Shown here: positions 5,102 to 26,397 of the stretch, one piece after another
Layout of the letters: each line of letters starts with the position of its first letter
How positions within the stretch are numbered: position 1 is the stretch's first letter
DNA from: a virus
IMG/VR virus record: IMGVR_UViG_3300030060_007040
Span: 10,940-37,336 of that record
DNA: 26,397 nucleotides
Strand: one strand, 5' to 3'
Program-made: the position numbers and the translations under genes
Notes under the pieces: generated by a model
What the model saw: the letters and a program-made list of their open reading frames with translations, nothing else
Database searches by the model: none
What the model was told of the DNA's origin: nothing

Positions 5102-6524
5102 ATCTGTCTACATTTACAGTCCCACTTCCTAAAGTGTGTTTACCTAGTGCTGTCGTAAACGACCCGCTTTCATGCCTAAGAATATAAGAGCCTTCTTCTA
5201 AAGAGCCGCTCCAAGCATCAAGAATGTTTTCTGAAAAAGTTATATTACCGTATTTTCTTTCTCCATTTGCAAACTTAGAGCAAGCTGCATTTAGGGTGGT
5301 CTCAAAGCCAGTGCATCTAGAGTCTAAAGATGCTACGAATTGTGTGATTGTATGTTCAGGTTGAGCCAACGTACCTGTTGTGTCGTAAATCAATCTGTTT
5401 CTGTTGAAATTAATTTGTATTGAAGCGTCTGGGCAAGTCGAAACAACATTTGCTCCAGAGTAATTTCCACTGATCTGAGGGTTATAGCCTACGTAATAAC
5501 GTTTGTTTACATGCCCTGTAACACCTTGGTAATATGTAGAATCACTTTGCCCACTAAATACGCTTGAGTAACTTGTTGAATTATTGTTAATATTGAATGT
5601 GCTCGTATCGTTAGCTAACTCGTCAATTAATACGCCACTTGCGTTAAAATGACTTATCAAAGGTGTTAGATCAGTCAAAGCGTCTGACAAGGTAGCGCCA
5701 GTTGCGACAATAATACCCAATACAAATTGTCCAGTTTCTACACCAGTAGTGATAGAGTAAGATTGAGTTGTGAAATTTCCATATATACCCGATTGAGTCG
5801 CGTTTGTGGCTGCGATTAAAGTGTTTAATTGGCCTGTAAACTCAACGTATTGATTGCATGGCGAACTGCTGCTACTTGTAGCACTGCTTGAAGTTGGGCC
5901 AGTCGAACTGCTGGTTGCGCTGCTTGTTGCGCTACTTGTTGCGCTACTACTGGTCGCACTACTGCTCGTTGCGCTATCATCAGTAGGCAAACTGCTTGAA
6001 CTACTTGTTGCGCTACTACTCGTCGTGCTGCTACTTGTTGCTGACCCATCATAATTACCAGAAACACATTCTTCCCCACTTATTTCATTGATTGTAAAGA
6101 CACTAGTGCCACCCATGTTTGAATGACTTGCGCAATAAGGGAAAATAGTTGTATTTGAGCCTTCGTGAGCGCGATATTCTGGTACATGAAATTTTACTGA
6201 AGCGCCAGCTTGGCCTCGCACGCCATAATGATATACACCCTCACCAGTTCCTAATGCATGGGCAGAGCCCCCAGCGTGCGTGCCGTCTTGAGTTTCAGAA
6301 AAATTAAACGGATGAGTAGAATTTGTTGAGTCTGATAAATCAAACTTATAGATTTTCATTCCTGTGGGATTCACCCCACAGTCATTGTGGTAATCAAAGC
6401 TTATAGAAACATCTTGCTCCCAACCAGCTAAACCAGAACCACTAAAAAAGAATTCATTTTGGCCACCATAACTACCACCGTTATTGGCTACTTTTACATA
6501 ATATGTTATATGTGGGTCAGGCAT
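5094..6524 (-). CDS. Tail adhesin with cupredoxin-like N-terminal module and Ser/Ala/Thr linker
   Basis: 476 aa in three parts. Residues 1-150 look like a cupredoxin-type beta sandwich: a His-Pro-Phe at 71-73, then 'VYHYGVRGQAGASVKFHVPE', and a FPYCASHSNMGGTSVF loop with Cys131, His134 and Met137. His71 plus that Cys/His/Met loop is the classical ligand order of type 1 copper sites. Similar 'YYC--H--MGG' segments occur in marine phage structural proteins, from memory. Residues 161-221 are almost only Ser, Ala and Thr, a flexible linker encoded by a short-period DNA repeat. Residues about 222-476 form a beta-rich domain with scattered Cys that I do not recognise; it contains a YYVGYNPQISGNYSG stretch. 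Start is one base after the upstream TAA. Likely an accessory adhesin; copper binding is unproven. Confidence 0.6.
   Translation of the reverse strand: MPDPHITYYVKVANNGGSYGGQNEFFFSGSGLAGWEQDVSISFDYHNDCGVNPTGMKIYKFDLSDSTNSTHPFNFSETQDGTHAGGSAHALGTGEGVYHYGVRGQAGASVKFHVPEYRAHEGSNTTIFPYCASHSNMGGTSVFTINEISGEECVSGNYDGSATSSSTTSSSATSSSSSLPTDDSATSSSATSSSATSSATSSATSSSTGPTSSSATSSSSSPCNQYVEFTGQLNTLIAATNATQSGIYGNFTTQSYSITTGVETGQFVLGIIVATGATLSDALTDLTPLISHFNASGVLIDELANDTSTFNINNNSTSYSSVFSGQSDSTYYQGVTGHVNKRYYVGYNPQISGNYSGANVVSTCPDASIQINFNRNRLIYDTTGTLAQPEHTITQFVASLDSRCTGFETTLNAACSKFANGERKYGNITFSENILDAWSGSLEEGSYILRHESGSFTTALGKHTLGSGTVNVDRYV
5862..6044 (-). repeat. Short-period repeat encoding a Ser/Ala/Thr linker
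   Basis: This stretch encodes residues 161-221 of the 476-aa adhesin, built from near-copies of a 12-bp unit. Read on the plus strand, three consecutive units are gttgcgctgctt, gttgcgctactt and gttgcgctacta (5914-5949), each encoding Ser-Ala-Thr-Ser-like tetrapeptides. The rest is more degenerate and is interrupted by LPTDD and TGPT spacers. The 12-bp period keeps the reading frame, so unit gain or loss would change linker length without breaking the protein. Confidence 0.75.
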
Positions 6525-6525
6525 T

Positions 6526-8781
6526 TTAGCAGTATCCGTAGAAATATCCAGTTTCGGTTAAGTTCACGATCTCTCCTGTAGTAAAGTACGAGGGATCACC
6601 AGTGGTGCAGTATTTTCTATTGTTTTGTATTTCTTGAGTAATCAAAGTATTTACCGTACTAATGCTTTGGCCTGAGAAAGTTAAAGTAGTTGAGCCCGTG
6701 GCGCTTCCTGTGATTACAGCAAAACCGCTTGACAGTGAATGCTCTCCTCCCCATCCTGCGGGGTAAAGAATACTCATTCCAGAACTATGAACGTTATGCC
6801 AAATTTGATCGTTAGTGTTTTCTAGCTGTACGGTGCTAAAAGGAAAAGAAATCCCACTTGAATAACTATAACTTTCAAAATTATCTGATATACCAGTTGA
6901 GGTTGAAATTAAATTGTAACCAGAGTAAGCGCCAGTGCCATCCATCATGGCGTTAATTGATGCTAAATTGTCAGAAGCATTATACCCGCTAGCAGAAACA
7001 GTCACTGCTACACCCGTGTCTGTAACGCCTATAACACCAGAAGTAACACCTGTCTCTGAAATGATAGTGCAGAAAAGATTTTGACTACTATTGTAACTGT
7101 TGTACTTGCCTACATTATCGTTTCTTAATTGAGTTATTAATGGTAAAGCCAACGGGCTTCCGCTTATTGTTCCAGTATAAGTTCCAGTTGAAGTAAAAGT
7201 AGAATCAACAGTAGTTTCAGAAGTGGTTTCGCTTGTAACAGAGCAAATCCTTGGGTCTAAATTGTAAGAAACATTTGGGTCGTATGCTCCATATAAGCCT
7301 TGCGTATAAGTACCGCTGTTAAATTTGTTGTAAGCTTCTGTGTCAGCTAGGCTTTCGCTCTGGCCAAGACCTTTAATCGTGTACTCAGTCGTTACTGTTT
7401 GAGTAACGTCTGATTTTTTGCTCAAACTAAAAGTTACGTTTCCAGCGTTGATTGCTCCACCTGAAAAAGCTAAAGAAATTCTATCTGCTTCTCCAGTATT
7501 TAAAAATTCATAAGTTTCAGCGCCAAGAGCGGCGGTCAAATCTGATCCAGAAGTTAATTCTTGTAAATATCTAAAACCGCTTGAAATATAAGTTTCGTAA
7601 CCGTAAGAGTGGCTAACATTATCTAAAATCTGAACAAAGTCTACACCAGTAACAGACGCTCCGCTTTTAGTTATAATTATGTCGTGAAACCCAGTTTCTA
7701 ACCCACTAATAGAAACAGTTAGCTGGCCGCTTGTACTACTAAATCCTGTTGGTATTACTTGAATAGAGTCTTTAGATTTATAAACCACAGAAGTTAGATC
7801 ACTTAACCCAGAACCATTTACAATAGCATTACTAGTAGAACCTTTAGTGTCGGTAATTCTTTGGTTAGGGAATATAAACAGTTGCTGAGATTTATCTGAC
7901 CCGCTAACTTCGCCAGAGGTTATATACTTAGTATCGCTTACTACAGACAAACCAGAATAAAGGTCAAAATATAAAAAGTCATTATACTCACCAGTAGGAA
8001 CAACAGCATTTAAGGTTGTGTTGTTACCGCTGAAATTTAAACCTAAACCAGTACCTAAATTAACACCCGTTATAGAGGATAAAGCGTTACCAAAAATATC
8101 TATAGTTCCACCGCCACTTGCAACTATACTGAAACTGTTTATTCTTGAAAGTGTTACAAAATTGTCTGTGGTCTCAGTTTGTATTCCTGACTCGTTACAA
8201 GTAACAGTGACAGTGGCTTGCTTTACGTTTAAATTGCCAGTATGCTCTACGGTTGCAAACGCAACAAAATTATCCGAAGCGCCCAAAGCTGAAGCAGTCA
8301 CATCACCTAGTCTAGTTTCAGAGATTGTGTAATCACCAGTAGTAAAGCCTGTCGGACCCCCACAGTAACCGCTTTCATGCCCGCTAACAACAAGCCCAGA
8401 AGCTTGAGCTAAAGAGCTACCTGTTGCAGTTATAATGCAAACACCAGAAGCAGTATTATGATCTGTGAATGTTACTTCGCCTGTGGTACAACCAGAAAGA
8501 GCAGTGTTAAAAAACCCTGAAGTATTTATAACACCACTAAGAGCGCTGTAAGCTCCATCGTTACCATCTCCTGTGGCTGTTATGTCAAAAGTCTCTACTG
8601 AATTATTTTTCTCAAAAACAACTTTTCCATAAGTAGCTGTTTGAGGAACAATTGTGTCTAGTACGGTTTCAGAAATTTTATTAAAATTTGCTTGGCCACT
8701 GCCAAACTTAACTCCAGTCACAGAAGTAGCATCAGTTACTTGGAACTGTATCGTGTCTCCTATGTTTCCGCTTACTGGCAT
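6526..8781 (-). CDS. Large adhesin-like tail protein with IPT/TIG-like N-terminal half
   Basis: 751 aa, beta-rich. TIG-like segments are visible at about 4-68 (GDTIQFQVTDATSVTGVKFG then LDTIVPQTATYGKVVFE), 213-285 (GTIDIFGNALSSITGVNLG then LNAVVPTG) and 308-385 (SNAIVNGSGLSDLTSVVYK then GFHDIIITKSGA). The C-terminal half (about 390-751) is a different, unrecognised region with Thr/Ser-rich strands, a TSETTSETTVDSTFTSTGTY low-complexity run near 515-535, and a segment GISFPFSTVQLENTNDQIWH (644-663) that looks globular. Cys are sparse but partly paired (98 and 115; 513 and 571). ATG 8781 shares its A with the upstream TAA (TAATG), so translation is probably coupled. No known family is assigned beyond the TIG-like parts. 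A host-attachment role is inferred from the repeats and the operon. Confidence 0.6.
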   Translation of the reverse strand: MPVSGNIGDTIQFQVTDATSVTGVKFGSGQANFNKISETVLDTIVPQTATYGKVVFEKNNSVETFDITATGDGNDGAYSALSGVINTSGFFNTALSGCTTGEVTFTDHNTASGVCIITATGSSLAQASGLVVSGHESGYCGGPTGFTTGDYTISETRLGDVTASALGASDNFVAFATVEHTGNLNVKQATVTVTCNESGIQTETTDNFVTLSRINSFSIVASGGGTIDIFGNALSSITGVNLGTGLGLNFSGNNTTLNAVVPTGEYNDFLYFDLYSGLSVVSDTKYITSGEVSGSDKSQQLFIFPNQRITDTKGSTSNAIVNGSGLSDLTSVVYKSKDSIQVIPTGFSSTSGQLTVSISGLETGFHDIIITKSGASVTGVDFVQILDNVSHSYGYETYISSGFRYLQELTSGSDLTAALGAETYEFLNTGEADRISLAFSGGAINAGNVTFSLSKKSDVTQTVTTEYTIKGLGQSESLADTEAYNKFNSGTYTQGLYGAYDPNVSYNLDPRICSVTSETTSETTVDSTFTSTGTYTGTISGSPLALPLITQLRNDNVGKYNSYNSSQNLFCTIISETGVTSGVIGVTDTGVAVTVSASGYNASDNLASINAMMDGTGAYSGYNLISTSTGISDNFESYSYSSGISFPFSTVQLENTNDQIWHNVHSSGMSILYPAGWGGEHSLSSGFAVITGSATGSTTLTFSGQSISTVNTLITQEIQNNRKYCTTGDPSYFTTGEIVNLTETGYFYGYC

Positions 8782-12303: not shown

Positions 12304-12931
12304 AATTACTTTTCATGGCAATCTAGCAGAAGCTTTAGGTCAAAAAGACTTCGAGCTTAAGGTAGATAATGTCGCTGAAGGCTTGCGAGCGGTTGACATT
12401 ATTTCTAAACGAAAGCTCTCTAAGGCTATTATTGAAAACGAAAAACAAAACATCAAGTACAAAATCTTAACGGATGAAAAACCGCTTTTTAGCGAGGATA
12501 TAAATGAAATAGAAAAAATAGCTGACTCTGAATTGTTTATAAACAAAAACCATAAAACAATCGATATTGTTCCTGTGCTAGAAGGAGCAGGTGATGACGC
12601 AAAAGATATTGGGTTAGTCTTAGGCGGGGGCCTTTTATTTGGTATTGGCTACGCCATGCAAAGCTCAACAATGATGATGATTGGCGCTTACGCATTTTTA
12701 ACAGGAATGAGTAACCTGCTTGCTGAACCACCAGAGTTTGAAGATTTTAGGGAAATACAGCAGACCAATAAAAGAGAATCGTATCTTTTTAATGGCCCAG
12801 TAAATACCTTTAACCCAGGCGGGCCTGTACCTATAGGCTATGGCCGTGTAATGGTGGGGTCACTTACTATCGCTTATTCTCACGAACACGGAGATAGACT
12901 GATTTTCAACAACGGAACTTATTATAACTAA
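12287..12931 (+). CDS. I: Tail assembly protein, lambda gpI-like
   Basis: 214 aa. Residues 1-95 suit the beta-grasp (ubiquitin-like) N-terminal domain of gpI: 'LTKITFHGNLAEALGQKDFE' then an AEGLRAVDII helix and an 'LFINKNHKTIDIVPVLEGAG' strand end. Residues 108-145 are glycine-rich and hydrophobic (DIGLVLGGGLLFGIGYAMQS then MMIGAYAFLTG), the membrane-like segment typical of gpI. The C-terminal motif ESYLFNGPVNTF...GGPVPIGYGRVMVGS (164-192) is diagnostic of the family. gpI is needed for tail-tip initiation, and the segment may help membrane penetration. Its start lies within the end of the gpK-like gene (17-base overlap), and its TAA shares a base with the gpJ ATG. A JAMM peptidase next to a ubiquitin-like protein is a recurrent phage pairing. 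Confidence 0.88.
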   Translation: MSQLTKITFHGNLAEALGQKDFELKVDNVAEGLRAVDIISKRKLSKAIIENEKQNIKYKILTDEKPLFSEDINEIEKIADSELFINKNHKTIDIVPVLEGAGDDAKDIGLVLGGGLLFGIGYAMQSSTMMMIGAYAFLTGMSNLLAEPPEFEDFREIQQTNKRESYLFNGPVNTFNPGGPVPIGYGRVMVGSLTIAYSHEHGDRLIFNNGTYYN

Positions 12932-15900
12932 TGGCAACCGATAAAGTACAAGGAATTTATTTCGAGGATTCAGGTATTAGATACATGTCTAATACTACAG
13001 GGTATGTCGTTGACTTGCTTTGTGAGGGTGAAATTTCTGGCTTAGTACACCAAGATTACAAAGACAATGGCTCAAATTCCATAGGAACTATAGGTTATAC
13101 CGCTGGTGTTACTACTGTTAATTATTCTTCAAACCCAGATAATGGAGAATTAGCTTCTATATATTGGAATAAAACACCCATATTTGATAAAGACTCTCAA
13201 AAATTTAACTACTCAAACATAGATTTAGTAACTAGTCAAAAAACCGTAGCTGAACAAGGCTTGTCTTCCCGAAGGCTTGTGCAGGTAAATGAAAAGCTCA
13301 GAGGTTTAGAAAGAAAAACTGGAGACACAATCGAGTTTGTTAAATACCATCGCTATTATACAATCAGAAACAAATACTGTAATAAAGCAATTATTAATTT
13401 AAGAGTCAATTCTCTTGGTACGTTAGATAAAAATCCAGGCACTACCAATCAACCAAATGAAACCTACGGGCAACTGCTGGATTCTGATGTTACGGTAAAT
13501 ATTGATTATAGAGCAAAATACGCTTTAGGCGCAGACATACAATACTCTCATGGAGGCAAAGTTGAGATAGAAGGCTCTTTAACTTCGCCTTACGCTAAAA
13601 GCTTTGAGTTAGACCTACCTTTAAATACTGCAAAAGACTCTCAAGGTAGAGGAGACTTTATTGGTTGGGAGATAAGAATTTACAAAAACAAAGAAGAGCC
13701 TACCACCCCAGACGTTAGAAACGAAGTTGTTGTAGACAATATCGTAGAAGAGATAGAAGACACTTTCGTTTACCCTAAAAGTCACGTCATAAAGAACACT
13801 TTCGATGCTGAGAATTTTTCTCAGATACCAGAAAGAGCTTACGACATGAGGCTTTTGAAAGTTAAGATTCCAAGTAATTATGACCCCATCACAAGAACTT
13901 ACGCTGGTAATTGGGACGGGCAATTCTCTACGGAATCACACGCTAACGGAAAAGGAAAATATTGGACCGACAACCCAGCTTGGTGTTTTTATGATTTAAT
14001 TACAAATAAAAGATACGGTCTTGGTAGATATGTAGACACTTCAACGCTTGACAAGTGGACGCTGTATGAAATCGCTAGATACTGTGACGAACTGGTTGAA
14101 GATTACGACAACGGCTTGGAGCCAAGATTTAGCTGCAATATCCTTATACAGTCTCGCTCAGACGCCTACCAAGTCCTTAACGACATGGCAAGTATCTTTA
14201 GGGGCATTGTTTATTACAACGGTGGAAGTTTATTCGCTGTTCAGGACTCATTAAAAGAGCCAGTATTTCAATTTAATAACACGAGTGTTGAAAATGGAGA
14301 ATTTAAATATTCAAGCACTAGCGCTAAAGTACGGCACACGGTAGCCATTGTAAGATACAATGACAGAAATAACAAGTTTGAACCAGCAGTTGAATACGTG
14401 GAGGACATAGATGCTATTAGAAAATACGGCATCAAGGAAAAAGAAATCTCAGCGTTTGGCTGCACAAGTAAATCTCAAGCTCAAAGGCTTGGCCGTTGGA
14501 TTCTTTCTACGGAGGCAAATGAGACCGAAACAGTTTCGTTTACATGCGGTCAGGAAGGGGCCATACTGCGCCCAGGAGACGTTTTCAGCGTCTCTGACTC
14601 TAATAGGAGTATGACTCGGCGTGGCGGCAGAATCAGAGCCTTAGAACGAACCAGTGACTCTAGTTTTAAGATCGCTATTGACTCTCAATTGAAAGGCGGC
14701 AAAAGCTGGGATGGTAATAAATTTGTTACAAATGAGAATTTAGACTCAAAAATTGAATACCAATTAACTGTTTCTACCCCCTCTTTTTATTACGACACTT
14801 CTCAGGTTAATCTTAATAACTCTTCGGAAATAGATTTAATTAGAAACAAGCAAGTACAAACATTTGATATTAGCCCGAACACAGTTGCGTATCATTCAGA
14901 CAGCGGCGTAAGTGTTATAACAGTTAGCGGCAACCTTAATGAAACAGCTTATACAACCAGTGGGTTTAGCGGCGAAGCGTTATGGAGTATAGCCACAACA
15001 GGCGTAAACAATGACGCTGATACTTTTTTTGAAAAGCTGGCTCAAGAGCAAGAGTACAGAGTAATTAATTTAAGCGAAAGAGATAAGGGTAAATACGAAG
15101 TTTCTGCTGCTGAGTATGCTAGAGCTAAGTACGCTGAAATTGATCAAGCAACTAAGCCTGTAAACAGCGTAAATTTTCAAGTCCCAAGTTCTCCGACAAG
15201 CGTAGGCCCAACTACTATTGTGCCAACGAAAATTGATGGAGCACCAAACACAAAACTAGTTACGTTTACGATAGGCCAAAGCGCAGATCACGACACGTCT
15301 GTTTCTTACTATCAAGCTTATATTAAAAAAGGAAGCTATCCAACTGAATCTGATTATGATTCAACAGTTAAAGTTTACTCTTTAAATAATTTAACAGCCA
15401 ACTTTATTCCAGCTTCTAATGGAACTTACTATATAAGGGCTTACGCTTATAATAGTCTTGGCGAATCTAATGGCTCACATGGTTCCGCGCAAAACACAAC
15501 TACAGTTGGAGGCGTTACTCCCGTAAGAGATGTTAGGATAACTCATCTTTCACTTTTTGATGACCTCTTGGGTGGGGCACAAGGCGACACAAGCGACCCA
15601 ACAACACCAGGCTCTATCGATCAGTTCGATGATTCAACAGCGCAGTTTAAATGGCAGACTTCTGTGCCGCAATTTCAAGGAGCTAACATAGCTGTAGACT
15701 TTCAATACAAAGTCGAAGTTTATGACGACACAAGCCTAAGCAACAACGTAAGAACGGTAAATAATTACAAGCCAGATGACGCTGAGTTCTCTAGGACGAC
15801 TTTTGATTATACTTTAGCTAACAACTACGAAGATCATGGAAATAATTACGACAATATTTCTAGACTTATAAGTTTACAAGTCTTTCCTGTGGATGCTGCT

Positions 15901-17175
15901 GGAACAGTCGCAGGAAACGACGGTCAAGGCGATAAATTAATAGTAGAAAATCCAATACCAGCCATTCCAACTGATTTAGAAGGGTTTATTGATTTAGATA
16001 ATCATATTAAAGTGTTTAACTTAAACAGAGCGGTAGACGTAAAGGAGATTGTGGTTCTCTCTGCCCCAGACGATTTTACGTATGAACAATACAGAAATGG
16101 CACAAGAGGCGATATAGATGTTAAAAGGATAAGCGCCGATGTTGATGTTATAGAAATCAACCCAAGCTGGACCACCCAAACTGCTGGCGGTGAAACTGTA
16201 GACGCTTTTTTCATGGTGGCGTATGTTGACCAGTTTGACTTAGACGTTGAAGCTTTGGCTATAGCAAATGGTGATACATTTGATTTAACTAAAAAACTTA
16301 ACGGTAGGTTTTCTGCTCCTTCGGATGGATTTAACTCTCAAAAGATTGAGAAAGTAACTCAAGACACAATAGACCTTCTCGGTGAAGGTTGGAAAGCTTG
16401 GATTCAAATAGACGTTGATGGTAAGTGGTATGGCAGAAATATTAAATGTGTTGAAGATGTAACAGATCAATACTCTGATTACGCTGGTTATATACCATTT
16501 TACTGTACATTTAAAGCTCCTGTTTTTAAATTTGAAAACGTAGCTGGTTTTACATTTGACAGGCTACGATTTACTGCTGGATGTGGTTATTTCTGGGATG
16601 AAGATTTACCCACTTACCCATCAAACATTGCAACTAAAGATATATCTCCCGTGGGAGGGCATACCAATAATAATCAAAGCTTTACAACCACAAATGACAC
16701 TGTAGAGCCGAATAGGACAATTACCGCCACCAAAGGCTTTAAACGTTATAGGGTTCACTTTGAAAAACCAAAAGGAAATCCATACTGGGTTGTTGGTCAA
16801 AATGTCAACAACGAGCCATATTATAGCGACGATTTCTTAACGAACATTAATGCGTTCTTTACGCCAGAAAGCACGGTATCACCAGCTTACGCTCAAGATT
16901 TTAAAGCTGGAGCAATTAAAGCTAAAACTAAAGCCACCACAATGAACGAGTTTAATAACAAAACTTTGCAAATTGGCTCAAGTGACGCTTACTTTAATTT
17001 CCATCCTGCGGGCTTTGTCCAAGGCTTTGGCGGGCTACCTAAAACTTCTCAGTATTTTGATATTCACATGGGCCACCTAGCAGATAAGAGCTATTTATCT
17101 AGAGCTATGTTCTTTGTGATGTCAACCACGGAAGAGACCAAAGGCCAAAAGAGCGCGGGCGATCCACAATGCTAA
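12931..17175 (+). CDS. J: Tail tip host-specificity protein, lambda gpJ-like
   Basis: 1414 aa, somewhat longer than lambda gpJ (1132). Residues about 22-80 hold the gpJ opening (TGYVVDLLCEGEISGLVHQD then an 'IYWNKTPIFD' turn). The central hub region has SKSQAQRLGRWILSTEANET and TCGQEGAILRPGDVFSVSDS (about 515-560), the conserved phage-tail hub core. Residues about 751-858 look like a fibronectin type III domain (VPSSPTSVGP start, NGTYYIRAYAYNSLGES end), followed by a GGVTPVRDVRI linker and a second Ig-like region. The C-terminal third (about 960-1414) has no recognisable family; it includes aromatic-rich stretches (RLRFTAGCGYFWDEDLPTYP) and presumably carries receptor contacts. gpJ forms the trimeric tip that binds the host receptor. 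ATG 12931 is coupled to the gpI stop (TAATG). Confidence 0.88.
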   Translation: MATDKVQGIYFEDSGIRYMSNTTGYVVDLLCEGEISGLVHQDYKDNGSNSIGTIGYTAGVTTVNYSSNPDNGELASIYWNKTPIFDKDSQKFNYSNIDLVTSQKTVAEQGLSSRRLVQVNEKLRGLERKTGDTIEFVKYHRYYTIRNKYCNKAIINLRVNSLGTLDKNPGTTNQPNETYGQLLDSDVTVNIDYRAKYALGADIQYSHGGKVEIEGSLTSPYAKSFELDLPLNTAKDSQGRGDFIGWEIRIYKNKEEPTTPDVRNEVVVDNIVEEIEDTFVYPKSHVIKNTFDAENFSQIPERAYDMRLLKVKIPSNYDPITRTYAGNWDGQFSTESHANGKGKYWTDNPAWCFYDLITNKRYGLGRYVDTSTLDKWTLYEIARYCDELVEDYDNGLEPRFSCNILIQSRSDAYQVLNDMASIFRGIVYYNGGSLFAVQDSLKEPVFQFNNTSVENGEFKYSSTSAKVRHTVAIVRYNDRNNKFEPAVEYVEDIDAIRKYGIKEKEISAFGCTSKSQAQRLGRWILSTEANETETVSFTCGQEGAILRPGDVFSVSDSNRSMTRRGGRIRALERTSDSSFKIAIDSQLKGGKSWDGNKFVTNENLDSKIEYQLTVSTPSFYYDTSQVNLNNSSEIDLIRNKQVQTFDISPNTVAYHSDSGVSVITVSGNLNETAYTTSGFSGEALWSIATTGVNNDADTFFEKLAQEQEYRVINLSERDKGKYEVSAAEYARAKYAEIDQATKPVNSVNFQVPSSPTSVGPTTIVPTKIDGAPNTKLVTFTIGQSADHDTSVSYYQAYIKKGSYPTESDYDSTVKVYSLNNLTANFIPASNGTYYIRAYAYNSLGESNGSHGSAQNTTTVGGVTPVRDVRITHLSLFDDLLGGAQGDTSDPTTPGSIDQFDDSTAQFKWQTSVPQFQGANIAVDFQYKVEVYDDTSLSNNVRTVNNYKPDDAEFSRTTFDYTLANNYEDHGNNYDNISRLISLQVFPVDAAGTVAGNDGQGDKLIVENPIPAIPTDLEGFIDLDNHIKVFNLNRAVDVKEIVVLSAPDDFTYEQYRNGTRGDIDVKRISADVDVIEINPSWTTQTAGGETVDAFFMVAYVDQFDLDVEALAIANGDTFDLTKKLNGRFSAPSDGFNSQKIEKVTQDTIDLLGEGWKAWIQIDVDGKWYGRNIKCVEDVTDQYSDYAGYIPFYCTFKAPVFKFENVAGFTFDRLRFTAGCGYFWDEDLPTYPSNIATKDISPVGGHTNNNQSFTTTNDTVEPNRTITATKGFKRYRVHFEKPKGNPYWVVGQNVNNEPYYSDDFLTNINAFFTPESTVSPAYAQDFKAGAIKAKTKATTMNEFNNKTLQIGSSDAYFNFHPAGFVQGFGGLPKTSQYFDIHMGHLADKSYLSRAMFFVMSTTEETKGQKSAGDPQC

Positions 17176-17176
17176 A

Positions 17177-17929
17177 ATGAACAATAATAATCTCATAGTT
17201 TTTTTAAATGATGGCACAAAGATTGTGTTAACTTTTCCTATTGAAACTTCCGAGCAAAAAGCTTTAAAAGATTTTGAGGCTATGCGACCAGAGGCCAAGG
17301 GGCAAGTTAAAAAATATTTCTTTATTGAAGATGACAGCGTTTCTCCTGAAGTTTACAAAAATCATTACAAATTAGACTCAGAAAACAAGCTTACAATGAA
17401 CATGAGGAACGCTTTCGCAGAGAAAGCTGTAGAAGAAATAAGAAAACGCCGCGACTTTTTTATTTCTAATCTAGACGTACCGTTTTTCAGGGCTCTAGAA
17501 GAAGATGATGGTCTATTAAAACAGCACATAACAAAACTAAAAAACTTTTTACGAGACTTACCCAATAATTTAAGGCTTGACGAAATTGAGGAAGATGAAG
17601 ACGTGTTATTGTATAATCCATTTGGTAACATTTTTAATCTTGATATCGTAGAACAAGGAGAAGGGTATACCACCCCTCCAAAAGTAATTATTGACGAACC
17701 TAAAGGGTCGTATTACGGCTTTCAAGCTAAAGCTGTTGCCTTTATTGAGGACGGTAAAGTTGTTAGGGTTGAAATGACCGACTTCGGCTGTGGCTACGAT
17801 TTTGCCCCAAACGTTAGTATCGAAGCTCCTGAAAATGGAAAACCAGCCGTGATTGCTAATGGCTGGCCTCAAAACGTAGTTTTATCTGATAAAGATATTT
17901 TATCTAATACTGAGTCTATTTATTCTTAA
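17177..17929 (+). CDS. Tail accessory protein: chaperone-like N-terminus plus GxGYxxxP repeat domain
   Basis: 250 aa, last gene of the tip operon, one base after the gpJ stop. Residues about 78-135 are a charged helical region, 'FAEKAVEEIRKRRDFFISNL' then DVPFFRALEEDD and 'ITKLKNFLRDLPNNL'. Its rhythm (R--RD--L--lDvpf--A, then K--LRD-P-N) resembles phage tail assembly chaperone segments (PF16778-like). An acidic linker DEIEEDEDV follows. Residues 158-218 carry two related units, GEGYTTPPKVIIDEP (161-175) and GCGYDFAPNVSIEAP (204-218), flanking an AKAVAFIEDGKVVRVEMTDF strand pair. 'G-GY--aP-V-i' repeats are common in phage fibres and form beta structure. It may help assemble or cap the gpJ fibre. 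The stop overlaps the convergent tape-measure stop within the same four bases TTAA. Confidence 0.6.
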   Translation: MNNNNLIVFLNDGTKIVLTFPIETSEQKALKDFEAMRPEAKGQVKKYFFIEDDSVSPEVYKNHYKLDSENKLTMNMRNAFAEKAVEEIRKRRDFFISNLDVPFFRALEEDDGLLKQHITKLKNFLRDLPNNLRLDEIEEDEDVLLYNPFGNIFNLDIVEQGEGYTTPPKVIIDEPKGSYYGFQAKAVAFIEDGKVVRVEMTDFGCGYDFAPNVSIEAPENGKPAVIANGWPQNVVLSDKDILSNTESIYS

Positions 17930-20900
17930 ACACTACCTGGTGTTCCATAAAGCATTCCGCCTGGCCTCTTTTGTTCCGCGAGAACTCCGATAACCGCGCC
18001 TCTGACTCTTTCTGCTAGCTGCTTGGTTTCTTCTTGTGAGGCGGCATTGGTGTTTCTTGAACCGTCTTGATTGGTTTGGGTTGTTACAGCGCCATTATTT
18101 TCAACATTCACAGAGATGCTGATGTTGTTTGTGGTGCTCCCTAACTCAACGCCTCCTGCGTTAGATTTATTACCTTGGAATTCAGTGGTGGGTCTTGCGC
18201 CAGTCACAGGCGCTACATATCCACCCTTGTTGAACGCTGAGATTCTACCTCTGTTTAAGTTCTCAAAGAAGTTGAGTCCGTATTTATCTACGATACCCTT
18301 TCTGACCACGTACTCACCACCAGTGAGCAACGCTGGGATATCATCTTCTTTATTCTGACCGCCCTTGGCAAAGCCTTTAAGCCCGCCAGCAAACAATAGT
18401 GCTCCAGCGCCGAACAAGAAACTTCTTCTTCTGTTGGATTTTTGGTCTTGAAATTCTTGTAGCTCTTTTTGTTTTTCGGCGTAGTAATCTAAGCGATCTT
18501 TTTGGTAGTCAAAGAATTGGTCTGCTTTTTCAAATTTGTATTTGTTTTGTGGGTTGTTTTCGTCGTTCAAAGCTAACGTGCTGAGTCTTGGGTCTGCGAC
18601 AAACCTACCTTGATCTGGGCGCTTGGTTTCGTTGTAGATAAAGCTATTTTTTAGTTTGAGCTTTGATGATCCGCCGCCGATTTCTACAGTTGAACGCTTG
18701 AAAATGTCTGGGTCAATAAAAGGACCAACCTCTGGGTAAGCGTTTACAGCGTTTTGAATATTCTTGATTCTTTGCTCGTTGAGAGGCTTGCCAAAGTCTA
18801 GCCTGAATCCTACTCTGTTTGCTAAAACTTGTTGCCCAGTGTCTCTACCGAGCCAGTCTTTTTTGGTGTCTCCAGTTGATTCTTTGTAGCCAAACGCTTC
18901 AATACCCGCTCTTTGCAGGGCTGACTGACGCTTTTGTCTTTCAGCTTGAATCGCGGCCATGTTTCTTGCTTTGCCGCTAAATATTCTGTCTGCGCTTTCT
19001 TTGGTAAGCTTAGTGTTATCAATCATTCCTCCCTTGTTAGCTGCTACAACCTTAGCAGAGTTTAAAGAGTCGAAAAAGTCTTTGCCGTATTCGTTTACAG
19101 TTTTCCTGCGAATCACGTATTCGCCGCGACTCAGGTAAGCTGGCACGTCGTCTTTTACGCCAGAACCACCTTTTACAATACCACCGCTGTTATAACCCTT
19201 AACGAGACCACCTTTGTTGAATCCCAAGAAACTAAAGGCTGTGTTGGTGGCCATGTCCAAAGACTTATCAAGCATTTTGTCAGCCATGTTTGCCATCATA
19301 TCGCTAAAGGCGTCTTTGAGCTTTTTAGTTCCTCTGATAGCTTCACCAAAAGCGTCTGCGGCCCCACTCTTGAAATCTCTACCAAAATCACGACCCATTT
19401 GGTCCATGTCTTTTGCGAAGTCTTGCTGGGTAAAGGTAAACTCAGAACGGATAGAGTCTATAAAGTTTGTGAAACCATAAGCGCCCGTTTCAAGCATTTC
19501 TTGATTGAGTTGGTTTACTTTTTCTCTGAGTTGATCTGTGGTGATTAAGCCTTTTTCTTCGGCTTCGATAAGAGCTTCTCTTTTATTTTTTTGCTCTTTG
19601 ATAAGTGCGTTTCTAGCGTCATTTACATCAGCAGCTATAGTTTCATCTGTTCCAGTTAAATCAAGCGTGCCATCTCCTTGAGCGGCTCTTTGTATTATAC
19701 TATCAACACGCCTTCTGTTGTCGTCTACTGCCATAGTAGCGCTAACCATACCGTTTTTTACCATCTCCAAAGTACGTGCGAATTGCTCTGCCTCTTCTGC
19801 TCTCTTTTCAAGTTCTAATTTTTCAAAAGTTTCTGAGGTTAAACCCGTAGTACCTTCTCTAGCTTCTTTTATTCTTTTATCTAACTCTGTGGTAACATCG
19901 CTTAATGTTCTAAGACCATCAGCGTTCTTTAAAACAACGTTTGTTGTTTCGTCTGAAATTTCTTGTAAAACGTCTTTTAATTTAGGGCTTACTTCTGTAG
20001 CAGCATCTAATACTTCTTTGAGGCTTAAACCTGGGCTAGCTGCTTTAAGTTGTCGGGCTACCGCTATGGCGTCTCCACCCGCTTCGTCTATCATTTCTTC
20101 TAAGGATTTTCCAAATTCGGAAAAAGAAACTTGCTCAAATCCCGCGTTTTGCATAGCCGCAGTTGCCGCTGTGTTTTGCGCTGCTCTAATTCCTTGTAAT
20201 CTAGCTCCTAATCTTGCGCCTCTGTCAGCGTTTGCTTGTGTTGGCGCAATCAAGCCAGTTAAAGCTGTTCCGAAGGATGAAACCTGATTCTTAGCAATTT
20301 CTCTTGGGTCGCCAAAAGTAGTTGTCCCACCCACAGCCAAATCTCTACTAGCCAAAGTGGCGGCTCTTCTTGCTGCGTTTAAGTTTTCAGTTTTTTGAAA
20401 TTCAATCAATTGGGTAAGTTTTTCGCTACTTAATATATTGCCTTTCATGGCTTCCATTTGTAGCTCAGTTTCTAACTTTAACTGACGAATTAATTCAGCA
20501 CGATTTTCTTCTAGCTGTCTGTATTCAATAGTTGAGTCTATACCTCTTTTTAGATTTTCATTAGCTTCTACTTGAGCTTGAGCTTCTACTGCTTTTAGCA
20601 TAACCATTTGAAGCTCTGGAGAATCACTTGGCATACTTTCTAAAGCATCAATAATTTCTTGCTGTTTTAGGTTGTCTGAGTCTAAAAGTTCTTTTTGTTC
20701 AAGTAATTGTTTAACGCTTTTATTTCTCAACTCAAACAACTGCTTAGACACTTGATCAGGCTTGGTAGCTACTTCTTGAAATCTGCTTTTTCTAGTTGTG
20801 GGTGCAATTCCTGCTGTAGAATCGAAGGATATACTACTTATTGTTCCTTTAACAGCTTCCGCTCTGGGGTCTGGATCAACTGTTGTACGATTTTGATTTT

Positions 20901-23900
20901 GTTGGAATTTTTTAGCTGCTTGTTTTTCTTTTTGTGAAAAATCTTGTATGATATTACCCTTACTGTCTCTGGGTGCTTGTTCGCCCAAGCTTTCCACGTA
21001 AGCTCTTCTGCTGGCAAGACTTTCTCCAGTTACTGACTCTACATTAGAAGCCGCCTCCCTAAAAGAATTGGTGGTTCTGTCAAAGACCATATTTAGTTGT
21101 TTTGCTAAAGCTATGTTGTTTTGGACTATTTTATTATAATTATTTTTTGCTAAATCGTCTTGTCGTAATTGTCTGCTAGCGTTTTCAGAGTCTGTAGTAG
21201 CCGCAAGAAGGCGATCACCTCTTGGTAGAACGCCAACGCCGTGTTGAGCAGCAGCGAAACCTTCTTTGGTCATCATTCTTTGTATGTTTTGTTGAATGAC
21301 GTTTGCAGATAAACCAGTTACTCTCATCAAAGAGTTAAAATTTTCTTTCTCCACTTGACGAAAGCTTTTTCCGCCGTCCTGACCAAATCGGCGGTCTTGC
21401 TCTTGAGTTCTTGGTCTTCCTTTTTCCACCGCATTCAGAAATTTATTAAAGTCAATTCTTTCACTGGCCATAGTCCTCATCATCTCAAAAACAGTGTCTC
21501 TGTCTGGGCCGTATTCATTAAAAGCTCCTCCACCAAAATGATCCATTGACATCTTGCCCGCCTTTTGTGTGATAATGCTGCCACCACCCGCTCTTTTTTC
21601 TAACTCTTGTCTTTGTTGTTCTAGCAATATTCTGCTTTGAGCGTCTGCGGCTTTTCTTCCTGCTTCTCTGCCCGCCGTTCTGTCTTCCATCTTTCCGATG
21701 ATTTCTTGAATTTCTCCGAATCTACTCTTAAAAGCGTCAAAACTAACAGTTAAAGACCTATCTAATTGTCTAAATCCTGACGCGTTTGTTTGACCTATTG
21801 CTTTTCCTACTTCTACGGTATTTTGACCAGCTATTACCGCGTTTTGCGTGTTAGCATCAAGATGATGAAGCCCATTCATTCTTAGGGCATCGCTAAATGA
21901 GTCTCTATTTTTATTCGCAATATCACTTGCTTGACTTATTATTAAATTATTTAATATAGCGCTATTCTTTCTGATAGCATTTACGGAATCTGGTAGCTCA
22001 GACAATTTTAGTTGGCTTGCGAGTTGTTCAACTGCTATTTGATCTGTATCAAAAGAACTTGGGTCAACTTGCACCCTTCCTCCGCTCATAATATTTGTTA
22101 GTATTGCAGATCGATCAAATTGCCTTGATAAATCTTGAGACCTACCTGTAATAGCTGGACCCAATAGCGGAGCTAAACCTTGGGCTCCCAAATTTCTGAC
22201 TGAATCTAAATTTAAATTGTTTAGCAGATTGTCTAGTAGGCTTGCGTTTGCTCTTCCTAAGTCTACTACGCTTTTTGAAAAAGAAGCAGTAATCGCCAAC
22301 TCCAAAGTATCGCCAAGTTTATCAATATTACTTGATAAATCAGAATTTTTAGAGCTACGAAGGAAATCACCAGCGCCTCCTGCCGTGGCGATTCTGTTTT
22401 GTAGTTTAGCAGACTCTTGAGCCCAATAAGCTTGCTGTTCTTCGATTTTTAATTGATGCTGTTGTTGTTGGATTATTTGTCCTAATTTGTTTGTTGTAGC
22501 TTCTTTGTTTGCTAAAATACTTTCATTTAAAACAGCAGTTAAGGCGCTCGCCTGCTCTCTTGTGTATTGAGCACTTATTAATGCGGCTTTAATATCTTGG
22601 CTAACTGTATTGAGTGCGTCAAGTTTTTTGGGGTTGTTAGCAAAAGCTGCAAAAGCTTTCTCCATTACGGGAGTCAAAGCATTTAACGCTCTACTATCTC
22701 TTTGTAATTGGGATAGTAATTCCCTGCTTTGCCCTTGCCCTAAATTAGTTGAAGCTTGTTCAATTTTTCTAGCAGAATCTTGGAACTGCTGGCTTGTTAT
22801 ATTTAACGCATTTGCAGCCCCTTCGGAGATAGCTCTACGTAATTCTTTAATTGAATTCGCTCTAATTTCAAATTGTCTTTCGCTAGCGTCACTTCTAGCT
22901 TGCTCAACATTAGTCAAGAAAGGTTGGTTTAATTTTCTAGCCCCCTGAAAAGCTCCTGTTGCTAAGTCAAGCTGAAAGTCTTTTATATTGTCATTAAAAC
23001 TGCTGATACTTTTTACATTTTCAAGAACTCTTTGCGCTGTTTTGGCTAAAGATGCTTGCAAGGATTGTAATTGATTATTTAAATCTTTGGCTGTTTTTTG
23101 ATAAGCTTTTTCTACTTTTTGTCTTTTTTCTAAATCGGCTGTAACTTGCGCAGCGTCTTTTGCTGATGATTTAATATCAACAAATAATTCATCTATGATT
23201 TTAAAAATTTCTTCTTGATCATCCAAGCTTTGGCTTAACACGGATTGTGCGAAATCGTCTCCAAAAAACTCTCGAAAGTCTCTACCTGAAAGGTCAATAT
23301 TTCTTCCTTGTTCTAAAGCTTCAGCTAAACCGCCTCGATCTAAAGTTGAACCTACAATACCTCTCGCTGCTGTGAGTGCTTTTTCTCCTTCGGCGTTATC
23401 TTCAAAAATTGTAGTATCTTCAAACCCAAGCAGCTTAGTAAATAAACCTCCTCCAGCACCCAAATCCGCTTGCAAGTTAAGTATGTCTTGCGCCCCTTTA
23501 AGAGCAGCTTGCTGTCTTTGTAGGTCTAAGCTTATCTCACCAAAGGCTTCTCTTATTTTGTCTGCGTCACCAGCGGCAGCTTTTATCTTATTTCTAAATT
23601 CAGCAGGCGCGTCACTAAGAGCTTTTGTTAGATTGGTTTGAATTTTTTGTATGTCACCTGCGTTAGTGTTTAATGGGTCATCAAAAGCGGCTTTGAGCTT
23701 GTCAAAGCTTTCCATAAACTGCTGACCGCTTTGCTGTAGTCTATTAAATTGTTGCCCCACGTTTTCTAATTCTTTGCCAATTTTATCGGCTTCTTTTTTG
23801 ATGTCTGCTTTGGCCATCGCTTTGCCCATGCTATCGACGGCAAATGCAACTGCGCCAACTGCCGCGATTGGGCCTGCAAATGCTGCTGCTCCTTGCACTG

Positions 23901-26397
23901 TTTTGCCAAGCCCAGTTCCTTTAAGTCTACTACCTAAAACGCCTTCACCTGCGTCTATATCTTTTATAAGATTGCTTCCAGCGCCAGCTACACCTGCGGC
24001 TGCTATTGCTCCAGTGCCGAGGCTAGTACCAAAAGCATTGATACCTGCTCGGTTCGTAGCGTCACCGCTAAATTGAGCAATTTGGCCAGCAAGCATTGGA
24101 GCGGCAAAAGCTATGCCTTGCCCCAACGAAGAAACCCTTGAGTTCATACCGAATCTTGCTTGTTCTCTTTGACTTCTTTCTTGTTTTCTTTGTTCTTTTA
24201 TAGCCTTGGCTTTAGCGTCTCTTGCTTTCTGTCTGGCTTTTTTATCTTCTTCGGAAAATTCAGCGGAGCTTTTAGAGTTTTCTCTTATTTGCTTGATTTC
24301 TTCATGGATAGCTGTTACTCTCTCTTCTCTAGCGTCATATTCGGCTTGCATAGCCTCTTCAATTTCTTGCGCGTCTTTAGCTTCCAGTCGCCCCATAACC
24401 GTATCGAAGCTAACTTTCTTGCCCTCTGCGTCTTTAAACATAACGTCCTTGCTGCCAGACCGCACTTCCATACCTTGGGTTGCTGCAAAGTCTTGGACTT
24501 GACGCTTACTAAATTTATCACCACCAGCAGCATCACGTTTTCTGCCAAAATCATCAATTCTTACTGGTTCTCTTAGCTTTTCTCTTTCTTCGCGCAGTAT
24601 CCCAATGTCAAGGGCGGCTTTTCCTCTTGCTTCCGTGTTTCTTAGCCCACGTTGATTTTTAACAAGCGTTTCATAGTCTTGGTCTGCTTTTTGTCTGGCT
24701 GTTATAGAATCTTGAATAGCCTTAGATTCTTTTGCTCTTTCTTCCCTAAACTCTCTACTAGACTGAACTATGCTTTGGATCGCGGGAGCAATTAAGGCTA
24801 TACTGATGCCACCGCCAACAAAGTCTCCAAAGTCTGCTGCGTAGTTAGGTACGTACCCGTGACTTGCTCCTTGAGTCTGCAAGTCTTTCATGCTCTTGCC
24901 AGAAGCTCTGTGCATGTTGATTGCGCGGCCAAGCGAGCCTTCAGCAGCGTTGTATACTCCGATGCCACCGCTTGCAGCCAACCTAGAGTCGTAACCAACT
25001 TTGACTTGACTTCGGGAATAACCAGCCGCCATCTCACGGCCAATAGCGGCCTTCAGAGCGTCTTGCGCAAAGTTCGGAACAAACCCACCAGCCATTACGC
25101 CCTTCTGGCCAAAGTAGCCTTTCCACTGAGTTTTAAGCGCGGGGTTTTTGTTTAAAACACCCATAGCCTGCCTGAATCTTTCTGGGCCAACTATCTTAGA
25201 AAGTCCTTGCGTCTTGATGTTGTTGGTGAGCATATCAACCAAGTATTTACTGAACGAGCTTGCAACATCTACAACCTTTTTAACATCGCGCTTGCTTCTT
25301 TCGAACATAGAAAGTTTTAGCTGCAAATGTTTTTGTGTGCCGAGCTTTTGCGCCATTTCTTCAGCAATAACAAAGTCACTGCCTTTTTTGGCTCCAGCGG
25401 CTGGTAGCCCGTATTCTTGAGCGAACTCTTCTTCAAACTTAACGCCAGCTACAGCACCACTTGCGCTTCCTTTGTTAAACTTAGCACCTACAGCACCTAA
25501 AACTTGATAAGCCAAGCCGTCGAATAAGCCTGGCACCTGATCAAGTAGCATTGTGTATTTTGGGTTAGCTTTCTTGATCTTTCTGGAGCTCAAACCACCA
25601 ACGGTGATGCTGCCTGCTCTACCTTCTAAGTCTCCGCCAACAACAAGCGTTTCTCCTTCTGGGCCTCTGATAAGAGTTTTGCCGCCGACACGTTTGGTGA
25701 TTTCTTTTTGGCTTAAATTGGTGTCAATTGATTTTGCTTTATTGGCTGGGTTTACATTGATAAATGCGTCACCTAAGTCTTCGTCACGTAAACCGCCAAA
25801 TTCAAAATTAGGAATTTCAACATTAGGGATAAAACCACCGCTAGCTAGTTTTGTGTTTTTAGTAACTACCAAGCCTATTTTACCTATTCTGTTTCCTAAA
25901 GAAATGTCGTCAATTTTACCATCTTTTATGCTTTTTTTCGGGGGTCCAGCTAAAAAACTATTAGCACCTTTCTTTAAGACTTGCGACAATTGAGCAGTTT
26001 GCCTTGTTCTCACTTCAGTGGGTTGCCCTCCACTAGACATTATGTCAAAAAATGCATTTCCTTGTTGCAAGCTGCCTCCCACTTTGTTTCTAGCAGAAAC
26101 TTCACCAAGTATGCCTTGAATTTGATTGTTTAAATATTTGAAGTTAACCTTTGGTTTTTTTAAGTGAGTCTTTATACCTTCTAAAGAAGACTCATCTACA
26201 CGCCCCAAGCTGTCGCTCCAAATTTCAAAATTTTTCATTCTTTCGCTAACAGGCGTGTTTGTTCTAGGCATTATTTCCCTAACAACAGTGTTAGCTTCTT
26301 GAGCGTATTGCTCTACTGTTTTACCTAAACGGGTTACATTTATAATCGCTGAGAATCTATCTTTTTTGTCAGCATTAGTGCTAATTAATCCCGTTCT
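17926..26397 (-). CDS. Tail tape measure protein, N-terminus beyond the window edge
   Basis: At least 2823 codons. The frame stays open from the right edge to the TAA at 17926-17928; ATG 26271 is internal, with 42 more open codons upstream. Numbering from that ATG: residues 1-480 are an unusual modular region with two nuclease-like segments and GG[F/Y][I/V]PN motifs; about 484-503 and 740-835 are hydrophobic stretches (IALIAPAIQSIVQ; GPIAAVGAVAFAVDSMGKAM); about 505-730 and most of 840-2330 are charged, Gln-rich coiled coil. The C-terminal region carries FNKGGLVKGYNSGGIV and two copies of the GEYV[I/V]R...YG..FF..LN motif (about 2380-2405 and 2646-2672), typical of tape-measure C-termini. It sets tail length, fills the tail tube and is ejected with DNA. 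It is on the strand opposite the tip genes, unlike lambda, and converges on the 250-aa gene with a 4-base overlap. Confidence 0.9.
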   Translation of the reverse strand, partial: RTGLISTNADKKDRFSAIINVTRLGKTVEQYAQEANTVVREIMPRTNTPVSERMKNFEIWSDSLGRVDESSLEGIKTHLKKPKVNFKYLNNQIQGILGEVSARNKVGGSLQQGNAFFDIMSSGGQPTEVRTRQTAQLSQVLKKGANSFLAGPPKKSIKDGKIDDISLGNRIGKIGLVVTKNTKLASGGFIPNVEIPNFEFGGLRDEDLGDAFINVNPANKAKSIDTNLSQKEITKRVGGKTLIRGPEGETLVVGGDLEGRAGSITVGGLSSRKIKKANPKYTMLLDQVPGLFDGLAYQVLGAVGAKFNKGSASGAVAGVKFEEEFAQEYGLPAAGAKKGSDFVIAEEMAQKLGTQKHLQLKLSMFERSKRDVKKVVDVASSFSKYLVDMLTNNIKTQGLSKIVGPERFRQAMGVLNKNPALKTQWKGYFGQKGVMAGGFVPNFAQDALKAAIGREMAAGYSRSQVKVGYDSRLAASGGIGVYNAAEGSLGRAINMHRASGKSMKDLQTQGASHGYVPNYAADFGDFVGGGISIALIAPAIQSIVQSSREFREERAKESKAIQDSITARQKADQDYETLVKNQRGLRNTEARGKAALDIGILREEREKLREPVRIDDFGRKRDAAGGDKFSKRQVQDFAATQGMEVRSGSKDVMFKDAEGKKVSFDTVMGRLEAKDAQEIEEAMQAEYDAREERVTAIHEEIKQIRENSKSSAEFSEEDKKARQKARDAKAKAIKEQRKQERSQREQARFGMNSRVSSLGQGIAFAAPMLAGQIAQFSGDATNRAGINAFGTSLGTGAIAAAGVAGAGSNLIKDIDAGEGVLGSRLKGTGLGKTVQGAAAFAGPIAAVGAVAFAVDSMGKAMAKADIKKEADKIGKELENVGQQFNRLQQSGQQFMESFDKLKAAFDDPLNTNAGDIQKIQTNLTKALSDAPAEFRNKIKAAAGDADKIREAFGEISLDLQRQQAALKGAQDILNLQADLGAGGGLFTKLLGFEDTTIFEDNAEGEKALTAARGIVGSTLDRGGLAEALEQGRNIDLSGRDFREFFGDDFAQSVLSQSLDDQEEIFKIIDELFVDIKSSAKDAAQVTADLEKRQKVEKAYQKTAKDLNNQLQSLQASLAKTAQRVLENVKSISSFNDNIKDFQLDLATGAFQGARKLNQPFLTNVEQARSDASERQFEIRANSIKELRRAISEGAANALNITSQQFQDSARKIEQASTNLGQGQSRELLSQLQRDSRALNALTPVMEKAFAAFANNPKKLDALNTVSQDIKAALISAQYTREQASALTAVLNESILANKEATTNKLGQIIQQQQHQLKIEEQQAYWAQESAKLQNRIATAGGAGDFLRSSKNSDLSSNIDKLGDTLELAITASFSKSVVDLGRANASLLDNLLNNLNLDSVRNLGAQGLAPLLGPAITGRSQDLSRQFDRSAILTNIMSGGRVQVDPSSFDTDQIAVEQLASQLKLSELPDSVNAIRKNSAILNNLIISQASDIANKNRDSFSDALRMNGLHHLDANTQNAVIAGQNTVEVGKAIGQTNASGFRQLDRSLTVSFDAFKSRFGEIQEIIGKMEDRTAGREAGRKAADAQSRILLEQQRQELEKRAGGGSIITQKAGKMSMDHFGGGAFNEYGPDRDTVFEMMRTMASERIDFNKFLNAVEKGRPRTQEQDRRFGQDGGKSFRQVEKENFNSLMRVTGLSANVIQQNIQRMMTKEGFAAAQHGVGVLPRGDRLLAATTDSENASRQLRQDDLAKNNYNKIVQNNIALAKQLNMVFDRTTNSFREAASNVESVTGESLASRRAYVESLGEQAPRDSKGNIIQDFSQKEKQAAKKFQQNQNRTTVDPDPRAEAVKGTISSISFDSTAGIAPTTRKSRFQEVATKPDQVSKQLFELRNKSVKQLLEQKELLDSDNLKQQEIIDALESMPSDSPELQMVMLKAVEAQAQVEANENLKRGIDSTIEYRQLEENRAELIRQLKLETELQMEAMKGNILSSEKLTQLIEFQKTENLNAARRAATLASRDLAVGGTTTFGDPREIAKNQVSSFGTALTGLIAPTQANADRGARLGARLQGIRAAQNTAATAAMQNAGFEQVSFSEFGKSLEEMIDEAGGDAIAVARQLKAASPGLSLKEVLDAATEVSPKLKDVLQEISDETTNVVLKNADGLRTLSDVTTELDKRIKEAREGTTGLTSETFEKLELEKRAEEAEQFARTLEMVKNGMVSATMAVDDNRRRVDSIIQRAAQGDGTLDLTGTDETIAADVNDARNALIKEQKNKREALIEAEEKGLITTDQLREKVNQLNQEMLETGAYGFTNFIDSIRSEFTFTQQDFAKDMDQMGRDFGRDFKSGAADAFGEAIRGTKKLKDAFSDMMANMADKMLDKSLDMATNTAFSFLGFNKGGLVKGYNSGGIVKGGSGVKDDVPAYLSRGEYVIRRKTVNEYGKDFFDSLNSAKVVAANKGGMIDNTKLTKESADRIFSGKARNMAAIQAERQKRQSALQRAGIEAFGYKESTGDTKKDWLGRDTGQQVLANRVGFRLDFGKPLNEQRIKNIQNAVNAYPEVGPFIDPDIFKRSTVEIGGGSSKLKLKNSFIYNETKRPDQGRFVADPRLSTLALNDENNPQNKYKFEKADQFFDYQKDRLDYYAEKQKELQEFQDQKSNRRRSFLFGAGALLFAGGLKGFAKGGQNKEDDIPALLTGGEYVVRKGIVDKYGLNFFENLNRGRISAFNKGGYVAPVTGARPTTEFQGNKSNAGGVELGSTTNNISISVNVENNGAVTTQTNQDGSRNTNAASQEETKQLAERVRGAVIGVLAEQKRPGGMLYGTPGSV
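24838..25839 (-). repeat. Three spaced GG[F/Y][I/V]PN motifs in the tape-measure N-terminal region
   Basis: SGGFIPNV at 25819-25839, GGFVPNFA at 25066-25089 and HGYVPNYA at 24838-24861. Between the second and third lies ALKAAIGREMAAGYSRSQVK and a GIGVYNAAEGSLGRAI segment. From memory, similar 'GF[IV]PNFA' punctuated stretches occur in large marine phage proteins. They seem to mark borders between modules; their role (hinge, cleavage site or packing motif) is unknown. Confidence 0.6.
25237..25554 (-). other. Segment of the tape measure resembling a PD-(D/E)XK nuclease fold (second)
   Basis: Residues about 240-345 counted from ATG 26271. A Gly-rich approach leads to FEEEFAQEYGLP (Glu280-282), then GSDFVIAEE with Asp299, then HLQLKLSMF with Gln317-Leu-Lys319. 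This again gives the E, D, (E/Q)xK order of PD-(D/E)XK enzymes, the QxK form being known in some subfamilies. It is followed by a helix-rich block (KRDVKKVVDVASSFSKYLVD). Weaker than a family match and needs a profile search. Confidence 0.3.
25942..26124 (-). other. Segment of the tape measure resembling a PD-(D/E)XK nuclease fold (first)
   Basis: Residues about 50-110 counted from ATG 26271. An acidic residue sits in a helix start (GILGEVSARNK, Glu57), followed by a strand with Asp76 (GNAFFDI) and, ten residues on, Glu86-Val-Arg88 in TEVRTRQ. The order E, then D, then ExK/ExR in successive strands is the PD-(D/E)XK core, close to 'G-LGE...FDI...EVKTR' of endonuclease-like proteins. Arg replaces the usual Lys, so catalysis is uncertain. 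This is a pattern match only. Confidence 0.35.

Follow-up and report, generated by a model that had tools for sequence, protein, structure and literature searches.

The 26,397-nucleotide stretch analysed here (the window) spans positions 10,940 to 37,336 of the IMG/VR virus record IMGVR_UViG_3300030060_007040, a 37.3-kb record, and ends in a 5'-truncated gene for a giant siphovirus tape measure protein (TMP). We think it rather likely that this protein contains a cassette region of enzyme-like modules that would travel as cargo with the tape measure and cut nucleic acid. The region lies at the very end of the record. The parts of the gene discussed below are listed by window position, with residues numbered in the visible protein (P0001).

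17926-26397, minus strand: tape measure protein, 2823 amino acids seen, frame open to the contig end
25837-26397, minus strand: module 1, PD-(D/E)XK-like, residues 1-187, with the catalytic-type core at residues 86-178
26008-26103, minus strand: module 1 motif, E99, D118 and E128-V-R130; the E, D and E are invariant in homologues
25822-25836, minus strand: linker 1, GFIPN (within GGFIPN), from a regular expression and a family scan
25087-25818, minus strand: module 2, candidate PD-(D/E)XK-like, residues 194-437, with E322, D341 and Q359-x-K361
25066-25086, minus strand: linker 2, GFVPNFA (within GGFVPNFA), from a regular expression and a family scan
24859-25065, minus strand: short closing module of the A-I-x-R-E...N-x-x-G-x-x-V-x-N type, from the consensus of 47 arrays (cluster 0, 46 members)
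24838-24858, minus strand: linker 3, GYVPNYA, from a regular expression
17926-24837, minus strand: tape region after the module array, linker-free and homologous to its equivalent in loci L003 and L004

Judged by its relatives, the window open reading frame (ORF) is a siphovirus TMP whose core lies off the contig; the assignment is read from L003 and L004, from synteny and from C-terminal matches. In these two IMG/VR loci, found via the linker region, the ORF is complete, at 3594 and 3717 residues, respectively, and the window protein aligns with both from residue 195 through its end. In each locus the giant ORF sits in a tail gene block, with a likely major tail protein and two ORFs at the tail-assembly-chaperone position, and the ORF after it, convergent with it, is a relative of window 17177-17929; L004 continues with the end of a J-like gene. 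The N-terminal 320 residues of both ORFs match Pfam PhageMin_Tail at E-values of 1e-24 to 1e-25, as well as several tape measure PHROGs, and a C-terminal piece of the window protein matches annotated TMPs, for example that of Nitrincola phage 1M3-16. As a side observation, the J-like and tape measure genes of the window (12931-26397) are convergent, as opposed to the usual co-directional lambda order, and L003 and L004 share this convergence.

In relatives the protein extends some 640-870 residues further upstream. Because the window frame reaches the contig end still open and full-length relatives extend beyond it, the window TMP is, by this comparison, 5'-truncated and about 650 N-terminal amino acids short. 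In relatives these further residues carry the PhageMin_Tail tape-measure core, and the two segments that a preliminary description of the window had placed in the N-terminal part of the tape measure are therefore internal modules. That description also numbered the protein from ATG 26271, which is merely the first ATG visible in the frame. We rejected it as the gene start: the frame is still open there and conserved module 1 columns (D10, D13, F15, I19 and Y31) precede it, so that module 1 begins upstream of this codon.

The preliminary description had noted, by eye, two segments with an E...D...(E/Q)xK/R order set off by GG[F/Y][I/V]PN motifs, from which it proposed PD-(D/E)XK nuclease folds and a tape measure doubling as an effector carrier. 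Both segments are present in the minus-strand frame, as E99/D118/E128-x-R130 and E322/D341/Q359-x-K361, and so are the motifs GGFIPN and GGFVPNFA, to which a third linker, GYVPNYA, can be added. Family loci were collected by scanning IMG/VR with GFVPNFA and GFIPNFA, and the counts, made among the matches listed, are lower bounds. At least 721 linker motifs occur in at least 204 ORFs, compared with 3.4 expected from residue shuffles; because a single linker motif served to choose the loci, this count is partly a product of selection, but further linkers in the same ORF are unaffected, and at least 172 ORFs have two or more. Of the listed linker ORFs, 87 have 450 residues or more ahead of their first linker, and all 87 match the tape-measure core profile. 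The G[FY][IV]PN linkers mark a large, apparently undescribed TMP family, defined here from sequence.

The family layout consists of (i) the core, to about residue 540-650, (ii) in many members a conserved short module, (iii) variable modules, (iv) a conserved closing module, which ends the array in most family members, and (v) a linker-free tape. The first and last linkers are 240-1000 residues apart in most complete ORFs, and both the length and the content of the array vary widely between relatives. A linker scan of genome contigs gave ORFs with at least two linkers in only three loci, at least two of which are on short contigs of metagenome-assembled genomes and may be viral. Among the matches listed for named phages, the relatives' TMPs are matched through the tape-measure core only (13-26% of the query).

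The first segment is well supported as PD-(D/E)XK-like by conservation and by a predicted structure. Its family has 12 members, 15-33% identical to the window copy, and the only invariant columns are G95, E99, D118, E128 and K143. The description had been uneasy about Arg in place of the canonical residue. The window copy does have Arg130, a substitution shared only with L020, and the misgiving is explained because ten homologues carry Lys at this position. AlphaFold2 gives a confident model (pLDDT 86.9, pTM 0.81) that is mixed alpha/beta, not all-helical: helix 86-106 contains E99, short strands lie near residues 109 and 119, the latter adjoining D118, strand 126-130 contains E128 and R130, and helix 137-150 (with K143) and strand 174-178 follow. 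This order of elements is compatible with an alpha-beta-beta-beta-alpha-beta core, with two of the core strands very short. With a mixed model and invariant acidic residues, the PD-(D/E)XK reading of this segment withstands the refuting conditions of an all-helical structure and of unconserved residues that the preliminary description had set. When the model is compared by Foldseek with the viral structures of BFVD, phage restriction endonucleases take the first two places, though as weak matches (E-values 0.038 and 0.61).

The second segment is less clear and is a probable divergent relative of the PD-(D/E)XK-like module. Its motif, E322...D341...Q359-L-K361, runs from window position 25434 to 25315. 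The module is conserved in L003, L004, L027, L035 and L129 at 52-81% identity, and the motif residues are invariant in 5 sequences, as are about 100 other columns; with most of the domain conserved, invariance is less telling than in module 1. Identity reaches 74-81% among the window, L003 and L004, as compared with 38-40% to L004 over the next stretch, made up of the end of the array and the early tape, and the ratio of non-synonymous to synonymous substitution rates (dN/dS) is 0.05-0.22 where it can be estimated, with dS often near saturation. For these reasons, module 2 is taken to be a functional cassette under purifying selection, as read from its sequence. Profile comparison revealed no direct link of module 1 with module 2. 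Both can be related to the main module family described next: by hhalign, module 2 aligns weakly with it, with E and D in register and above 60 of 60 column shuffles, and the module 1 profile aligns to it with matching positions of E, D and ExK and a score of 30.6, where 60 column shuffles reach no more than 10.2.

Across the relatives, the stretches between linkers are, from their sequences, interchangeable and enzyme-like modules. Counting as modules the inter-linker stretches of 80-450 residues, a GxxFE...D...[DEQ]xK signature is present in 108 of 326, compared with 10.2 ± 2.8 after shuffling and with only 13 of 614 control pieces of the C-terminal tape region, a contrast that is descriptive in that the expression was written after examples had been seen. 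Together with the invariant columns of module 1, these counts put the motif match originally made by eye above chance. An iterative profile draws 105 of 292 modules into one homologous family, the main module family, in whose alignment of 75 sequences G, D and K are invariant and F and E are at least 90% conserved. Other modules are of different kinds. A module in L004 passes the Pfam cut-off for SNase, and the catalytic-type D, R, D, E and R positions are kept in three modules; a GNAT module in L037 passes its curated-library cut-off; and four HExxH and two HAD-like modules lie between tape-measure linkers. Module relationships rest on profiles, with curated-library support for SNase and GNAT only. 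The HAD-phosphatase-like modules contain 'YDFDETL' (L072:6342-6776, minus strand; L110:4150-4671, plus strand), and the HExxH metallopeptidase-like modules (L004:7029-7691 and L092:2335-3222, plus strand; L133:3242-3832 and L181:428-1393, minus strand) are possible self-processing enzymes.

The broader notion of effector-like enzyme modules borne by a tape measure is strengthened by this module family, including the independent SNase module with its catalytic-type residues. The analysis shows the architecture, with a cassette region between the N-terminal tape-measure core and the long tape, as well as the linker family, a motif conserved across homologues, the predicted module 1 fold and, in relatives, an SNase module with a complete motif. 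In our model, the G[FY][IV]PN(F)A linkers separate independently folding, swappable enzyme-like modules; the window array would comprise one PD-(D/E)XK-like nuclease module, one probable divergent relative and the conserved closing module. What would follow is inferred, from ejection and refolding to catalysis, its target and any release by proteolysis, and for delivery the inference draws on how tape measures behave in general (PMC13190303). As part of the tape measure, the modules would be stretched out in the tail lumen, would be ejected with it ahead of the genome and would refold in or across the inner membrane. Refolded modules may then cut nucleic acid, be it DNA or RNA of the host, rival elements or nucleic acid tied to defence, helping to establish infection, and metallopeptidase-type modules in some relatives could release cargo, as proposed for polyvalent proteins (PMC5512222). 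We would give an even chance to the broader proposition that, across a large group of uncultivated siphoviruses, TMPs serve as a general injected-effector chassis, whose linker-bounded cassettes are swapped like polymorphic toxin tips and bring nucleases and further enzymes into the host ahead of the genome.

Several results weigh against delivered nucleases. The BFVD matches of module 1 span only 68-73 columns, with a template-modelling (TM) score of about 0.25 and E-values above 0.03; Foldseek finds no significant match in PDB (none below E 0.18), and module 1 has no significant match among Pfam or PDB profiles. The window copy of module 1 has Arg, not Lys, at a catalytic-type position. For module 2, the AlphaFold2 model built with five homologues is of too low confidence to be used (pLDDT 55.8, below 50 in the core), and no PD-(D/E)XK core is visible in it. 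The model of delivered cargo also has to account for how a folded nuclease would fit in the tail lumen and how phage DNA would be spared. In addition, direct searches with the window segment gave no match in IMG/VR, named phages, PDB or Pfam, and PDB profile searches with both module families gave chance-level matches only.

In one alternative, the modules are not effectors but PD-(D/E)XK-like domains that are catalytically dead or have been repurposed, binding host membrane factors or the end of the genome while the DNA is ejected. The ExR of module 1 and QxK of module 2 would fit such a role, as would the association of the lambda tape measure with inner-membrane proteins during injection (PMC13190303). 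We nevertheless regard it as unlikely: the complete E-D-ExK set is present in 10 of the 12 module 1 family members, the main family nearly always keeps E, D and K, the SNase modules retain catalytic-type residues that would be unexpected for pure binding, and the variety of enzyme types fits no single structural role. It is also quite improbable that the motif match is coincidental, the modules being mosaic insertions of another fold that keep GxxFE-D-xK for other reasons. This would account for the modules having no Pfam, PDB-sequence or PDB-fold support, but not readily for the strong enrichment of the signature over two controls, the restriction of the invariant module 1 columns to G, E, D, E and K, a confident model ordered as helix, short strands, E-x-R strand, helix and strand, or restriction endonucleases as both of the best viral structural matches. 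Finally, a role in the producing cell, in tail assembly or length control with the region removed before or during tail assembly, is very unlikely in our estimation: TMPs of some phages are processed, as lambda gpH is, and the HExxH modules of some relatives could be processing proteases, but the wide variation in array length and content fits swappable cargo better and nuclease modules would be an odd part of an assembly function.

Two observations concern other parts of the contig. The ORF at window 5094-6524 (minus strand), which sits in a block of fibre-like genes, has a cupredoxin-like stretch, 'FPYCASHSNMGG', in which a Cys-His-Met pattern of copper ligands can be recognized by eye; a long Ser/Thr/Ala repeat comes after it. 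Upstream of the window on the same contig (L002:3888-8737), a DnaE-type polymerase appears by eye to be split: its PHP-like piece (3888-4637) is set apart from the polymerase body (6215-8737) by two ORFs, one glycosyltransferase-like and the other for a DnaQ-like exonuclease, also recognized by eye.

If delivered nuclease cassettes are the correct interpretation, the longest tail protein of these phages would be a cargo carrier in addition to a ruler and DNA conduit, and the phages would gain a strike on host DNA or defences before genome entry. The linkers would offer a route to new effector domains in metagenomes, and tape measures would be connected with Tme and similar effectors of injection systems. 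Arrays of nuclease modules within true phage tape measures look new, in that we found no report of them in the literature searched, which misses most subscription papers and all preprints.

Individual features do have precedents. In lambda, the tape measure gets as far as inner-membrane proteins while the DNA enters (PMC13190303). Polyvalent proteins (Iyer et al. 2017, PMC5512222) are likewise multidomain, with nuclease, acetyltransferase and metallopeptidase-type domains, and are presumably delivered together with the DNA of phages or plasmids. Several enzyme domains per polypeptide, a trait of that class, are found across the relatives described here (SNase, GNAT, HExxH, HAD-like and PD-(D/E)XK-like), whereas the window itself has only two nuclease-like modules, and the sole match to the catalogued polyvalent-protein domains is a chance-level one to LPD39 (E 0.11). 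The words 'tape' and 'SNase' have 0 occurrences in the main text of that paper (PMC5512222); in the present family the tape measure is the carrier, with a short conserved linker between modules. True phage tape measures with an enzyme domain are also known from mycobacteriophage TM4 and SPbeta YomI, which have peptidoglycan hydrolase motifs, but those enzymes act on the cell wall during entry, whereas the predicted targets of the present modules lie inside the cell, nucleic acid among them. The Sle1-type effectors of actinobacterial injection systems share a tape-measure-like scaffold with exchangeable functional domains (PMC13277306); their functional domain is C-terminal and bacterial, in contrast to linker-bounded arrays that are viral. 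Tme, from the contractile injection system of Streptomyces davawensis, is a TMP-related effector with proven endonuclease activity and shares with the window protein a tape-measure-related carrier, a nuclease domain and loading in a tail-like particle (PMC11126660). It differs in its EndA-like C-terminal domain, its experimentally established activity and its bacterial injection system, whereas the phages described here have a tail operon and linker-separated arrays of internal PD-(D/E)XK-like and SNase modules that are predicted nucleases.

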